From Acidobacteriota bacterium (lineage in GTDB: Bacteria > Acidobacteriota > Vicinamibacteria > Vicinamibacterales > 2-12-FULL-66-21): DNA of 47,473 nt. Shown here in pieces: positions 3,120 through 47,473 of this stretch. The translations under genes and the position numbers were made by a program. The notes beneath the pieces were generated by a model. That model saw only the letters and a program-made list of their open reading frames with translations, made no database searches and was not told where the DNA came from. The stretch lies in the NCBI GenBank assembly GCA_016184105.1, contig JACPDI010000041.1:1-47473 (forward strand). The letters run 5' to 3'. Numbering within the stretch: position 1 is the first letter of the stretch; the number at the start of each line of letters is the position of its first letter.

Positions 3120-3196
3120 ACGTGCGACGTGCGGCGTGCGGCGTGCGACGTGCGGCGTGCGACGTGCGACGTGCGGCGTGCGACGTGCGACGTGCG
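3120..3196. repeat. Tandem heptamer array, 11 copies of RCGTGCG
   Basis: Eleven uninterrupted 7-bp units, each ACGTGCG or GCGTGCG, fill 77 bp. The first base of each unit reads A A G G A G A A G A A. All other positions are invariant, which suggests recent slippage or unequal exchange. It lies in the gap between rpoC and the PAP2 gene, and 7 bp units would break any reading frame that used them. It belongs with the other 7-bp phased arrays of this window although the unit sequence differs. Confidence 0.9.
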
Positions 3197-23189: not shown

Positions 23190-23260
23190 CGGCCAGTGCC
23201 CGGTGGCCGGTGGTCGGTCGCGCAGAGTTGTTCTGGCCACTGACCACTGACCGCTGAGCA
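23190..23260. repeat. Inverted heptamer array (TGGCCGG / CTGACCA type)
   Basis: Left arm of four 7-bp units CGGCCAG, TGCCCGG, TGGCCGG, TGGTCGG (23190-23217); right arm of four units CTGGCCA, CTGACCA, CTGACCG, CTGAGCA (23233-23260). The arms are imperfect reverse complements around a 15-nt loop. It starts at the base after the rplB stop and fills most of the gap to rpsS. Confidence 0.85.
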
Positions 23261-23277
23261 CGACAGGAATCACAGTT

Positions 23278-23557
23278 ATGAGTCGTTCACTGAAGAAGGG
23301 GCCGTTCGTCGACGTTCCGCTCCTCGAGAAGATCGAGGTGATGAACCGCAGCGGCGAGAAGAAGGTCATCAAGACCTGGTCGCGGCGTTCGACCGTGGTG
23401 CCCGAGATGGTGGGGCACACGCTGGCGGTGCACGGCGACGCGGCAGTTCAAGGGGCACACGACGAGGGCCGAGAAGGCCGCGGCGACGGCCCCGGCTGCG
23501 GGCGCGCCGGGTGGTGCCGGCGCCCCGGCGGCGTCCGCGCCGAAGGCGGGTGCGTGA
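23278..23557 (+). pseudogene. rpsS: 30S ribosomal protein S19, disrupted by an internal deletion
   Basis: The N-terminal half is a normal S19 ([18 protein letters not shown] to [10 protein letters not shown], ending about 23433). A 13-nt stretch follows, then the normal C-terminal part [19 protein letters not shown] resumes at 23447 in the +1 frame, ending with TGA 23555-23557. The segment usually reading NGRKFIPVYVT to EFAPTRT (about 27 residues, 81 nt) is gone, a net loss of about 68 nt. The original frame therefore runs without stop into rplV. S19 is essential, so an assembly error or another copy elsewhere is likely. Confidence 0.85.
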
Positions 23558-24024
23558 TGATCCAGGCGCAGGCCACGGCCAAGTACGTGCGCACCTCGCC
23601 GCAGAAGGCGAAGCTGGTGCTCGACCTGATTCGCGGCCGCAGCGTGAACGAGGCGCTGGCGACGCTGCGGTTCGCGCGCAAGTCGATCGCGCACGACGTC
23701 GAGAAGGTGCTCCGGTCGGCGATTGCCAACGCGCAGAACAAGGACGGGTTCAGCGGCGACGTCGATCGGCTCTACGTGGCGGCGTGCTACGCCGGGTCCG
23801 GCCCGTCGCTGAAGCGCGTGCGTCCGGCGCCGATGGGGCGCGCCTTCCGCGTGCAGAAGCGCACCGCGCACCTGACGGTCGCGGTGGCCGAGCGCGCCGA
23901 GACGCGCGCGGCCGCCGGCGGCGCTCCGAAGGCGAAGGCGCGCGGCGCGACGCCGCGCGGCGCGGTGAAGACGGGCAGGGCGAAAACTCGAAAGGCCGCC
24001 GCCACCCAAGCGAAAGAGGCATAG
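23557..24024 (+). CDS. rplV: 50S ribosomal protein L22
   Basis: 155 residues. The core [31 protein letters not shown] and the hairpin [16 protein letters not shown] that lines the exit tunnel are intact. A 40-residue Ala/Arg/Lys-rich tail extends beyond the usual 110-115 residues. ATG 23557 shares a base with the TGA ending the original S19 frame (TGATG), the expected coupling. Because of the rpsS deletion, translation starting at rpsS would now read through into this frame. Confidence 0.93.
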
Positions 24025-32904: not shown

Positions 32905-32981
32905 CGGCCGGTGGCCGGTGATCAGTGGCCGGTAAAGCGACGACGACTGACCACTGACGACTGAGCACTGACCACTGACCA
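32905..32981. repeat. Inverted heptamer array, 11 units in register
   Basis: Left arm CGGCCGG, TGGCCGG, TGATCAG, TGGCCGG (32905-32932); two spacer heptamers TAAAGCG and ACGACGA; right arm CTGACCA, CTGACGA, CTGAGCA, CTGACCA, CTGACCA (32947-32981). The 7-bp register is unbroken for 77 bp. Arms are imperfect reverse complements. It fills the rpmJ-rpsM gap. Confidence 0.88.
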
Positions 32982-32999
32982 CTACAAGGATCGAGAAGC

Positions 33000-42909: not shown

Positions 42910-43644
42910 TTATCCGTTACGGCCGGCCATCACCGCGGCAATCACAATCACAATCGCAATCAGCGCGTAGATGCCCAGAAACGTCGTGAGAATCGGCTGC
43001 GTGCGGCGCCGGTACAGCACCGCCAGGCCAATCGCCAGGACGGCAAACCACCAGATCCAGAACAGGTCGATCGTGCCGAGCAGGCGCGCGAAAAACGACG
43101 TGTCGTCCAGCATCGGGAAGAAGACCGCCAGGTTCGTGGAGCTGTCGAGCGACCCGCGCGCGTACGCGATCGGCGTCGAAAAGAGCTGCTGCACCAGCGT
43201 GATGACCGACGAGTAGACCGTGACCGCGAAGACCTGCTTGAAGCTCGCGGCGCCTCCCAGCGCCGCGTTGAACACCACGAACAGGATGCCGGCGATCGCC
43301 GCCAGCAGCAGCCCCCAGGCCAGACCGTTGAGCACGCCGAAATATTTCACGCGCCCGATCCCCTGCTCGAGGCGGGACTCGATTTCGGGGGTGACCTCCA
43401 TCCCGAAGGCTTCCATGCTGTCCAACTGCTTGGCCAGCACCGCCTCCTGCCCAACCTCCGTGCTCATGAAGACGAAGGAAATGACCCCCATCGTCAGCAA
43501 GATGATGACCATCGCGCCCAGCCATTTCGGCTGGGCCACGACCTGCTCGAAGGTCGCGCGGGGAGAAAAAACGATCCCGATAAGCCTGGCCAGAACGCCA
43601 GACCGGGCAGGGCTCGGCCCTGTGTCAGCGAGTGATGTCGGCAT
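42910..43644 (-). CDS. YIP1 family membrane protein
   Basis: 244 residues with about five hydrophobic segments. IGIVFSPRATFEQVVAQPKW at the N-terminus is the typical start of bacterial Yip1-domain proteins, with membrane parts GLLLAAIAGILFVVFNAAL and WIWWFAVLAIGLAVLYRRR. Function in bacteria is unknown. It is the first gene of the export operon. ATG 43644 is the last start before the conserved region. Confidence 0.8.
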   Translation of the reverse strand: MPTSLADTGPSPARSGVLARLIGIVFSPRATFEQVVAQPKWLGAMVIILLTMGVISFVFMSTEVGQEAVLAKQLDSMEAFGMEVTPEIESRLEQGIGRVKYFGVLNGLAWGLLLAAIAGILFVVFNAALGGAASFKQVFAVTVYSSVITLVQQLFSTPIAYARGSLDSSTNLAVFFPMLDDTSFFARLLGTIDLFWIWWFAVLAIGLAVLYRRRTQPILTTFLGIYALIAIVIVIAAVMAGRNG

Positions 43645-44942: not shown

Positions 44943-46706
44943 ATGGCTGTCCGCATCGGCGAGCTGCTGCTCAAAGAGAAGCGCATCACGCCTGCCCAGC
45001 TGCAGGAGGCGCTGAACTACCAGAAGCAGAACGGCGGCAAGCTCGGGTTCAATCTCGTCAAGCTGGGGTTCGTCAAGGACGAGGAGATCACGGCGCTCCT
45101 CTCGAAGCAGTACGGCGTTCCCTCCATCAACCTGCACCAGTTCGACATCGATCCGACCGTCATCAAGCTGGTTCCGTCCGACACGGCGCACAAGTACCAG
45201 ATCATTCCGCTCTCGCGCGCCGGCGCCACGCTGACCATTGCGATGACGGACCCGACGAACGTGTTCGCCATGGACGACATCAAGTTCATGACGGGCTACA
45301 ACGTCGAGCCCGTCGTGGCGTCGGAAACCGCGGTTCTGGATGCGATTTCGAAGTACTACATTGCGGCGGCTGCCCCCGCGGGCGGGGCGAAGGGGGACGG
45401 GCAGGGCCAGGGCGTCTCGCTCGAGTTCGCGACCAGGGCGCTCGAGGAGGTGTCGCAGGTCGGCGACGAAGACGTCGAGGTGCTCGAGGAGCTGGACCAG
45501 ATCGACGTCGGGGCGCTGGAGAAGCAGAGCGGCGAGGCGCCGGTCATCCGGCTCGTGAACCTGATGCTGATCTCCGCCATCCAGAAGGGCGCCAGCGACA
45601 TCCACATCGAGCCGTACGAGAAGGAGTTCCGGGTCCGGTTCCGGATCGACGGCATCCTCTACAACATCATGCAGACCGCCATGAAGTTCCGCGACGCGAT
45701 CACGTCGCGCCTCAAGATCATGGCGAAGCTCGACATCGCCGAGAAGCGGCTGCCGCAGGACGGCCGCATCAAGATCCGGTTTGCCGACAACGTCGGCCAG
45801 AAGGAAATCGACTTCCGCGTCTCGTGCCTGCCCACGCTGTTCGGCGAGAAGATCGTGCTCCGGCTCCTCGACAAGGACAAGCTCATGCTCGACATGACGA
45901 GGCTGGGCTTCGAGGCGGAGTCGCTCAAGAAGTTCGAGACGGCGATCCTGAAGCCGTGGGGCATGGTGCTCGTCACCGGTCCGACGGGCAGCGGCAAGAC
46001 GAACACGCTCTACTCCTCGATCTCCAAGATCAACACGTCGGAAACGAACATCATGACGGCCGAAGACCCCGTCGAGTTCAACCTCGTGGGGGTCAACCAG
46101 GTGCAGATCCGCGAGAACATCGGGCTGAACTTCGCCGCGGCGCTGCGTTCCTTCCTCCGGCAGGACCCGAACATCATCCTGGTCGGCGAGATCCGCGATT
46201 TCGAAACGGCGGAAATCGCCGTGAAGGCGGCGCTCACGGGCCACCTCGTGCTCTCCACGCTGCACACCAACGACGCGCCGAGCACGATCAACCGCCTGAT
46301 GAACATGGGCATCGAGCCGTTCCTGGTGGCCAGTTCCGTCAACCTGATTTGCGCGCAGCGCCTCGTGCGGCGCGTGTGCTCCAACTGCAAGGAAGACCAC
46401 GCGCTGCCGGCCGAGGGACTGAAGGAGGCGGGCTTCACGGCGGAGGAGGCGAAGCACGTCGTCCCGAAGAAGGGGGCCGGCTGCGAGAAGTGCAACGGCA
46501 CCGGGTACAAGGGACGCGTCGGCCTGTACGAGGTGATGGAGATCACCGACGAACTGCGCGAGCTGATCCTGGTCGGCGCCTCCGGGCTCGAGCTGCGGAA
46601 GAAGGCGGTGGAGGAAGGCATGATTTCGCTCCGCCGCAGCGGGCTGCTGAAGGTCAAAGAGGGTGTCACGACGATCGAAGAGGTCGTGCGGGAGACGGTC
46701 AGGTAA
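44943..46706 (+). CDS. pilB: Type IV pilus assembly ATPase
   Basis: 587 residues. Hexameric ATPase that extends type IV pili (GspE/PulE/PilB family). An N-terminal MshEN-type domain (GELLLKEKRITPAQLQEAL), Walker A GPTGSGKTNT (about residues 345-354), Asp box and Walker B IILVGEIRDFETAEIAVKAA, and the C-terminal zinc site CSNC then CEKC separated by a long loop. Next to pilT, so PilB rather than a secretion GspE. ATG 44943 has GTGAGGGAG 10-18 nt upstream. Confidence 0.95.
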   Translation: MAVRIGELLLKEKRITPAQLQEALNYQKQNGGKLGFNLVKLGFVKDEEITALLSKQYGVPSINLHQFDIDPTVIKLVPSDTAHKYQIIPLSRAGATLTIAMTDPTNVFAMDDIKFMTGYNVEPVVASETAVLDAISKYYIAAAAPAGGAKGDGQGQGVSLEFATRALEEVSQVGDEDVEVLEELDQIDVGALEKQSGEAPVIRLVNLMLISAIQKGASDIHIEPYEKEFRVRFRIDGILYNIMQTAMKFRDAITSRLKIMAKLDIAEKRLPQDGRIKIRFADNVGQKEIDFRVSCLPTLFGEKIVLRLLDKDKLMLDMTRLGFEAESLKKFETAILKPWGMVLVTGPTGSGKTNTLYSSISKINTSETNIMTAEDPVEFNLVGVNQVQIRENIGLNFAAALRSFLRQDPNIILVGEIRDFETAEIAVKAALTGHLVLSTLHTNDAPSTINRLMNMGIEPFLVASSVNLICAQRLVRRVCSNCKEDHALPAEGLKEAGFTAEEAKHVVPKKGAGCEKCNGTGYKGRVGLYEVMEITDELRELILVGASGLELRKKAVEEGMISLRRSGLLKVKEGVTTIEEVVRETVR

Positions 46707-46755
46707 GGCACACGGCACAAGGGACAAGGGACAAGGAAAAAGGGAAAAGGCAAAC
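46707..46755. repeat. Tandem heptamer run GGSAMAA before pilT
   Basis: Seven units in exact 7-bp register: GGCACAC, GGCACAA, GGGACAA, GGGACAA, GGAAAAA, GGGAAAA, GGCAAAC. They begin at the base after the pilB stop and reach within 5 bp of the pilT ATG, so the AAAGG-like ribosome site of pilT lies in the repeat itself. Confidence 0.8.
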
Positions 46756-46759
46756 AGGC

Positions 46760-47473
46760 ATGGCGACACTTCCGGATCTGTTGAAAGCGCTGGTTGACCT
46801 GGACGGGTCCGACCTGCACCTGACCACGAACACGCCGCCGCAGATACGGATTCACGGCAAGCTCCAGCCGCTGGATCTGCCCGTGCTGACGCCGGCCGAG
46901 ACCAAGCAGCTCGCCTACAGCGTGCTCACCGACTCGCAGAAGAAACGGTTCGAGGAAAGCCTGGAGCTGGACTTCTCGTTCGGGATCCGCGGGCTGGCGC
47001 GTTTCCGGTGCAACGTGTTCAACCAGCGCGGCGCCGTGGCCGCGGTGTACCGTGTCATTCCCGAGCGCATCAAGACATTCGAGGAGCTGGGGCTGCCGGC
47101 GGTCATTGCGACGCTGGCCGAGCGGCCGCGCGGCCTGGTGCTCGTCACCGGCCCGACCGGGAGCGGCAAGTCCACGACCCTGGCCGCGATGATCGACAAG
47201 ATCAACAACGAGCGCCACGACCATATCCTCACGATCGAGGACCCGATCGAGTACATCCACCCGCACAAGTCGTGCGTGGTGAACCAGCGCGAGCTGCACA
47301 GCGACACGAACTCGTTCACGGCGGCGCTACGGGCCGCGCTGCGCGAGGACCCGGACATCGTGCTCATCGGCGAGATGCGCGACCTGGAGACGATCGAGGC
47401 GGCCCTGAGGATCGCGGAGACGGGCCATCTTACATTTGGAACGCTGCACACGAACTCGGCGGCGCAGACGATC
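46760..47473 (+). CDS. pilT: Type IV pilus retraction ATPase (5' portion, runs off window)
   Basis: 238 codons of a usual 350-370. MATLPDLLKALVDLDGSDLH, IHGKLQPLD, Walker A GPTGSGKSTTLAAM (about residues 131-144), the Asp box LTIEDPIEY, Walker B DIVLIGEMRDLETIEAAL and the His box AETGHLTFGTLHTNSA are all canonical PilT. It powers pilus retraction in twitching and DNA uptake. The window ends inside the gene. Confidence 0.96.
   Translation, partial: MATLPDLLKALVDLDGSDLHLTTNTPPQIRIHGKLQPLDLPVLTPAETKQLAYSVLTDSQKKRFEESLELDFSFGIRGLARFRCNVFNQRGAVAAVYRVIPERIKTFEELGLPAVIATLAERPRGLVLVTGPTGSGKSTTLAAMIDKINNERHDHILTIEDPIEYIHPHKSCVVNQRELHSDTNSFTAALRAALREDPDIVLIGEMRDLETIEAALRIAETGHLTFGTLHTNSAAQTI

Follow-up and report, generated by a model that had tools for sequence, protein, structure and literature searches.

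The heptamer run between pilB and pilT is probably one of a large class of intergenic seven-nucleotide arrays in Vicinamibacterales

Does a short tandem repeat that carries the predicted ribosome site of pilT serve to set the level of the pilus retraction motor, or is it one example of a repeat habit of the lineage? The question is raised by a run of heptamers between pilB and pilT in an acidobacterial genome of 4.24 Mb in 69 contigs (G000). The window, meaning the whole stretch of DNA that was analysed, is contig 41 of this genome and is 47,473 nt long. The junction consists of the following features.

44943-46706, + strand: pilB, type IVa pilus extension ATPase (TIGR02538, 770.5 bits against a cut-off of 675.65)
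46707-46755, + strand: heptamer array of 7 x 7 bp (periodicity against dinucleotide shuffles)
46739-46750, + strand: start-proximal AAAGGGAAAAGG in units 5-7, which includes the best predicted SD-like stretch for pilT (anti-SD pairing)
46760-47473, + strand: pilT, retraction ATPase of the PilT/PilU family, 5' part (TIGR01420, 366.4 bits against a cut-off of 319.1)

The pilB stop codon TAA occupies 46704-46706, and the pilT frame opens with the ATG at 46760 and reaches the contig end at 47473. The gap of 53 nt between them is made up of seven units (in order GGCACAC, GGCACAA, GGGACAA, GGGACAA, GGAAAAA, GGGAAAA and GGCAAAC), then AGGC, then the ATG, and the array thus ends 4 nt before the start codon. 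Every unit opens with GG; the units are imperfect, and only GGGACAA is present twice. The canonical word of the array is AAGGGAC, and ACAAGGGACAAGGGACAAGG has a single site in G000, which is this gap. Tandem Repeats Finder reports period 7 with 6.6 copies and 84% matches at 46705-46750, and the periodicity therefore begins inside the pilB stop codon. Among periods 2-20, the best-scoring one for the gap is 7. Its period-7 run score of 23 is reached by none of 20,000 dinucleotide-preserving shuffles (best 14), and none of 4,000 shuffles of the gap reaches this score at any period from 2 to 20. The run is not due to chance, and the preliminary description, which saw seven 7-bp units extending from the pilB stop almost to the pilT ATG, was right in observation and coordinates.

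It was also right that the array forms the pilB-pilT spacer and carries the best predicted SD-like stretch of pilT. This stretch is AAGGGAAAA at 46740-46748 in units 5-6, 11 nt from the start. An exact pattern search for the 16S rRNA 3' end found no match in the G000 assembly, and the standard anti-SD was therefore assumed; the pairing of AAGGGAAAA to it is weak at -5.3 kcal/mol. The further claim had been that a change in unit number would move the ribosome site relative to the pilT start, and here the prediction points the other way. Deletion in silico of unit 1, 2, 3 or 4 does not alter the 24 nt that precede the ATG, and after removal of any one of the seven units the anti-SD pairing still amounts to -5.3 or -5.4 kcal/mol. 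The predicted site is kept because it sits within the array, and unit number would therefore shift the distance between pilB and pilT, not the spacing of the ribosome site. By this prediction, a shift of the ribosome site through unit number is rejected for all seven single-unit removals, and the change in expression through ribosome-site spacing that a phase-variable contingency locus of the proposed kind would show is not predicted.

The region around the gap is unusually unstructured. At 46690-46790 the fold has a z of +1.94, and 199 of 200 shuffles fold at least as well, a lack of structure that would favour ribosome access. A hairpin or terminator in the pilB-pilT gap is rejected, as the region folds worse than most shuffles.

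To place the array among its relatives, PilB was located in 40 of 40 relatives and 80 further named loci were taken in. The junction scan covers 121 loci, of which 115 were parsed (the unparsed ones are L030, L031, L085, L090, L111 and L139) and 94 are distinct by PilB C-terminus. From title and identity, 28 of the 94 gaps were separated by hand as more distant Acidobacteriota, with some titles giving no class and some evidently mislabelled (a Bifidobacterium, a Cyanobacteria), and 66 are of Vicinamibacterales type; L113, L138 and L142, which are long-branched or doubtful, were kept among these 66 and in the PilB tree. A heptamer array is present in 22 of the 66 distinct gaps, 19 gaps have 15 nt or less, 17 span 16-60 nt and carry no array, 7 are longer or open and 1 is unreadable. 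The more distant Acidobacteriota have arrays in 0 of 28 gaps, and family f1 has them in 8 of 11 readable gaps. The comparison covers one genome per species, and the 12 genomes of the family search include no second member of genus g1. The preliminary description had proposed a comparison of unit number in relatives; in that comparison both array presence and unit number vary, with parsed gaps from -4 to more than 500 nt, and array length and sequence differ between close relatives. A gap of -4 nt is also seen in L031, outside the parsed set.

With the main word taken as the commonest heptamer in the best period-7 run of a gap, and gaps with two arrays (L003, L025) counted once, the 22 array-bearing gaps have 21 different main words, which rejects a single word that marks pilT. 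Examples of gap units are AAGGCTG, CTGGAAG alternating with CTGGTAA, GAAAGTT, AAGGCAG, GGAAGAG, CGCCCAC and CGGGTAT. Main words within one letter of each other make up 7 of 231 pairs (3.0%) versus 1.8% for random heptamers, and the words look nearly unrelated to one another. G007 and G004 have the same main word, AAGCTGG. On the coding strand, the main array is G-rich in 17 of the 22 gaps and C-rich in 4. Selection for SD-like purines could cause this G-richness, which would run counter to the explanation that we prefer below.

If arrays were general suppliers of strong ribosome sites, gaps that have them should be better provided than gaps that do not. The opposite is found and this role is rejected: within the same lineage, with p-values that ignore relatedness, the median predicted site is -4.8 kcal/mol in array gaps (n = 19) and -6.5 kcal/mol in array-free gaps (n = 39; p = 0.001), these being the gaps left after setting aside L113, L138, L142 and those not fully readable. 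Compared with array-free gaps of at least 20 nt (-6.3 kcal/mol, n = 21), array gaps are likewise weaker (p = 0.005).

On a PilB tree of 66 rows, built by a quick method and with 28 of 65 inner branches weak, array presence or absence changes at least 14 times. Even close pairs can be strikingly unlike: at 95.8% PilB identity, L016 has a gap of 87 nt with an array and L048 an overlap (-4 nt), and at 94.0% L003 and L008 have gaps of 84 and 2 nt. In genus g2, an array is present in one of three genomes, and the gaps of the other two measure 2 and -4 nt. In genus g5, the two genomes (L005, L112) carry different words, AAGCTGG and AGAGCTG, at 95.5% PilB identity. A close trio with PilB C-terminal identities of 95.8-97.8% has one word type and gaps of 31 nt (L052), 52 nt (L057) and 52 nt (L064). 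The 21 nt by which L052 and L057 differ are worth three units, and CAGGGACACACAC lies near the start in both, one base farther off in L057. Their array scores are 9 and 7, and only L064 with 23 lies above the array threshold; the automatic alignment of the trio positions the length difference elsewhere. With these low scores and the differing alignment, a shared word type with differing unit number is suggestive only. Two long gaps stand apart. The 559-nt gap of L025 (G014) holds several distinct heptamer arrays, CGGGTAT x 5 and CCCGGTC/CCCGGCA among them, as if array formation had taken place there repeatedly. The 289-nt gap of L004 (G007) consists mostly of an alternation of CTGGAAG and CTGGTAA (period 14) and includes an N run, and the apparent length of this array therefore need not be its true length.

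Period-7 arrays are not restricted to the pilus genes. We sampled 431 kb of G000, 328 kb of G007, 400 kb of G014, 412 kb of named Vicinamibacterales flanks and 301 kb of distant Acidobacteriota, where the last two sets are 19 loci each, picked by hand from the 80, with DNA around pilB, and many distant loci are titled Terriglobia or its orders. Genes were called by our own heuristic. Intergenic and coding period-7 arrays number 5 and 2 in G000 (score threshold 13), 29 and 7 in G007, 40 and 3 in G014, and 33 and 2 in the named flanks. Any other single period from 4 to 13, with 14 and 21 set apart as multiples of 7, reaches intergenic maxima of 2, 3, 7 and 3 in the same order, and the distant set has 1 intergenic period-7 array. 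Unit length 7 thus dominates the intergenic arrays of the lineage, weakly in G000, at many loci that lie mostly outside genes. G000 itself is array-poor, with 5 arrays in 57.9 kb of intergenic DNA; at a looser threshold it has 8 versus about 1 in the whole block-shuffled sample.

The position of arrays was followed for 104 of the 107, as 3 have no flanking gene call. The 75 co-directional arrays lie at a median of 18 nt from the upstream stop and 64 nt from the next start; 36 of them begin within 15 nt of the stop and 15 end within 15 nt of the next start. Convergent gaps hold 14 of the 104 arrays and divergent gaps 15. On the coding strand, the bias of the co-directional arrays is weak, with 41 G-rich and 29 C-rich (p = 0.19). 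Those nearer the stop are G-rich by 30 to 14, and those near starts are slightly C-rich (10 G-rich to 15). This G-rich pattern near stops has a published counterpart in the heptamers of Xanthomonas and Nostoc (PMC4692102), and it suggests that where an array lies with respect to the stop codon matters more than the ribosome site. In 31 of the 104 arrays, the gap also contains an 11-mer of the reverse complement of the array, versus a mean of 2.3 with gaps swapped.

Further heptamer arrays are found in the window itself.

3120-3196, + strand: intergenic array ACGTGCG/GCGTGCG, 11 copies, predicted long hairpin (Tandem Repeats Finder; fold z -3.44)
23191-23261, + strand: rplB-rpsS gap with inverted arms of GGCCGGT and ACTGACC type, predicted hairpin (fold z -3.84)
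32906-32983, + strand: gap before rpsM (S13) with GGCCGGT-type and GACCACT heptamers, inverted arms (z -1.91; 9 of 200 shuffles as good)

The word ACTGACC is common to both ribosomal-protein gaps. In relatives, 7 of 24 parsed rplB-rpsS gaps (30 loci) score as arrays with differing words; L159 and L160 are misparsed with long gaps, one of them is among the 7, and 6 are secure. G036 has AAGGCAG at both its pilB-pilT and its rplB-rpsS junction.

Within a genome words come back; two genomes seldom have one in common, although words are not wholly private. When arrays are paired across different stretches of the same genome, 12 of 373 pairs have a word in common in G007 and 22 of 717 in G014; the 5 arrays of G000 give 0 of 7 pairs. 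The low array number of G000 and the single site of its pilB-pilT word run counter to the explanation preferred below. Between genomes, sharing is 0 of 1160 pairs for G007 with G014 and 0 of 145 and 0 of 200 for G000 with these two. The named loci share words in 1 of 38 pairs on one contig and in 1 of 490 pairs between genomes. In G000, ACTGACC-ACTGACC matches 11 times, spread over 8 places, and the six places examined outside the window are all intergenic by our gene calls. CTGGAAG x 3 has one site in G014 and occurs in one genome only among 199 of the phylum, which shows just that this one word is rare. A 20-mer of GGGACAA repeats is found in 1 of 149 genomes of the order, the same-family genome G006, at five places, three scored as intergenic and two inside a called gene; its backward control, also a heptamer repeat, has 12-25 matches in each of three g42 genomes. 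In G006, the pilB match breaks off at residue 484, and looking for the pilT side yielded no more than a 53% match. Each genome would have a word stock of its own; re-use of words is shown in G007 and G014, by a route that we infer.

These findings have to be set against other accounts of the run. The preliminary description amounts to a contingency locus prone to slippage, with the PilT level set by unit number through a shift of the ribosome site. The place of the array in the pilT leader and the variation of gap length among close relatives speak for it, and there is a precedent in hmw1A of Haemophilus influenzae, where more heptanucleotide repeats upstream of the gene go along with lower expression according to the accessible part of the report (PMC8262952). 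Both are 7-nt repeats upstream of a gene with a surface function. The hmw1A repeats, however, are flanked by promoter elements, and expression goes down with added copies (PMC8262952, in the same part), whereas the pilB-pilT array lies in an operon gap and 46600-46900 yielded neither a promoter-like nor a terminator-like site. The predicted site and its start distance survive removal of any unit, the co-directional arrays lie closer to stops than to starts, and ribosomal-protein genes too are preceded by arrays. We consider such a locus unlikely. An effect of unit number on PilT level is possible; the data do not support unit number as a dial that evolved to set this level. A dedicated dial is hard to square with 21 main words among 22 array-bearing gaps, with the heptamer arrays found in the gaps that precede S19 and S13, and with predicted sites that are weaker in array gaps than in array-free ones.

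Two further accounts let the array act as nucleic acid. It could be an RNA element bound by a protein of S1, Csp or CsrA type that regulates many genes, in the manner proposed for the TAACTGA repeats of Beggiatoaceae. The many array gaps per genome, the recurrence of words within G007 and G014 and the unstructured pilB-pilT gap region would fit this, and the TAACTGA repeats, too, are heptamers just upstream of starts, over the expected ribosome site (accessible part of PMC4679880). They have one fixed word across genomes in that text, whereas 21 main words stand in 22 gaps here, and arrays here lie nearer to stops, although our own array does sit 4 nt from its ATG. The word TAACTGA is absent from the array, and start-proximal placement is not the rule. 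In one genome sample there are 25 words among 40 arrays, which therefore offer no single sequence to a binder; the reverse-complement 11-mers mean that many arrays may be base-paired, and arrays occur in convergent and divergent gaps as well. All this makes an RNA element very improbable. Action by G-quadruplex, as suggested for the heptamers GGGAATC and GGGGA(C/T)T, would find seven coding-strand G-runs within the array, three of them GGG, and L016 is a relative with GGGAATC and GGGAATT units. The heptamers of Xanthomonas and Nostoc share much with ours in the accessible part of PMC4692102: they are intergenic, form inverted pairs, lie near stops on the sense strand and vary greatly in length and sequence among close relatives. 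There, one G-rich word type is described per genome, whereas here we find many words, many of them lacking a run of three G or C, and our array has no predicted quadruplex. ViennaRNA gives the same fold with or without quadruplexes and none in the minimum-energy fold, which is a weak test that covers RNA only. We give this mode of action almost no credence.

Long prokaryotic simple sequence repeats with 7-nt units were reportedly described by Mrazek et al. 2007, and the pilB-pilT array is a member of this class of long heptamer repeats. Cyanobacterial STRR sequences resemble the arrays here in being intergenic 7-nt arrays with several unit types, in another phylum. For Calothrix, three heptanucleotides are mentioned in the accessible part of PMC4692102. 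According to Mrazek et al. 2007 as cited in PMC4679880 and PMC4692102, heptamers make up the commonest class of long simple repeats in the majority of genomes surveyed, and a 7-nt slippage step is proposed for them; the passages concerned make no mention of Acidobacteriota. As far as PMC4692102 goes, no role in gene regulation could be identified for the Xanthomonas and Nostoc heptamers. In the part available of PMC4060949, the median score of 7-nt tandem repeats is normal over 4 Acidobacteria genera (0.00) and 2.00 in Planctomycetes. The former value agrees with a habit that only part of the phylum has. Among the literature matches listed, heptamer arrays in Acidobacteriota appear in no title or abstract opening.

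We conclude that the pilB-pilT run is very probably one of a large class, the intergenic heptamer simple sequence repeats of Vicinamibacterales, which are probably produced by slippage and copying and tolerated in the gap. Such arrays would arise and grow by strand slippage in 7-nt steps, and would be re-used among the gaps of one genome, which would yield its genome-specific word stock. Untranslated gaps, the interiors of operons included, tolerate them. At this junction, the purine-rich and weakly structured array is predicted to provide pilT with a weak ribosome site that stays in register despite changes in unit number. Many array-free relatives have pilB-pilT overlaps or gaps of a few nt, and such arrangements commonly permit translational coupling. 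An array of at least 50 nt would weaken coupling. Parted from pilB by the array, pilT would initiate alone and not through coupling, and this is the more likely physiological consequence.

As a single locus, the pilB-pilT array is ordinary. It is one of many repeat runs that appear, vanish and change their words between genes, and therefore resembles a by-product of DNA copying more than a dial of the pilus motor; as a dial of pilT it is probably nothing special, and as a sample of a lineage habit it is useful. The moderately interesting part of the finding is that the 7-nt repeat habit of Vicinamibacterales is nearly indifferent to sequence. The 21 near-random main words in 22 array-bearing genomes are comparative evidence that the 7-nt period, not the sequence, is what is generated, and the comparison bears on why bacterial repeats favour 7-nt units. 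Beyond that, and with considerable doubt, there may be a process in Vicinamibacterales that writes intergenic 7-nt arrays nearly blind to sequence, with an inherited period and a genome-specific word that is renewed, copied and inverted. If so, even congeneric species would have renewed words, and words would be copied from gap to gap as well as into inverted arms. A 7-nt register would then have to be built into some polymerase, repair or template-switching activity of this lineage, one that is absent or far less active in other Acidobacteriota, and operon gaps such as pilB-pilT would be by-products in which the translation of neighbours is repeatedly coupled and uncoupled. In any case, regulation should not be read into a short repeat just because it covers a ribosome site.

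Two minor observations concern other genes of the window. In the rpsS (S19) frame at 23278-24024, just residues 1-53 of 92 match the family; from there the frame stays open into rplV (L22), and S19-like C-terminal residues stand in another frame. The cause is either an error of assembly or sequencing or a genuine lesion in this essential gene. A hexamer repeat, CAATCA x 4 at 42939-42962, lies inside the 3' end of a called gene at 42910-43539 on the minus strand.
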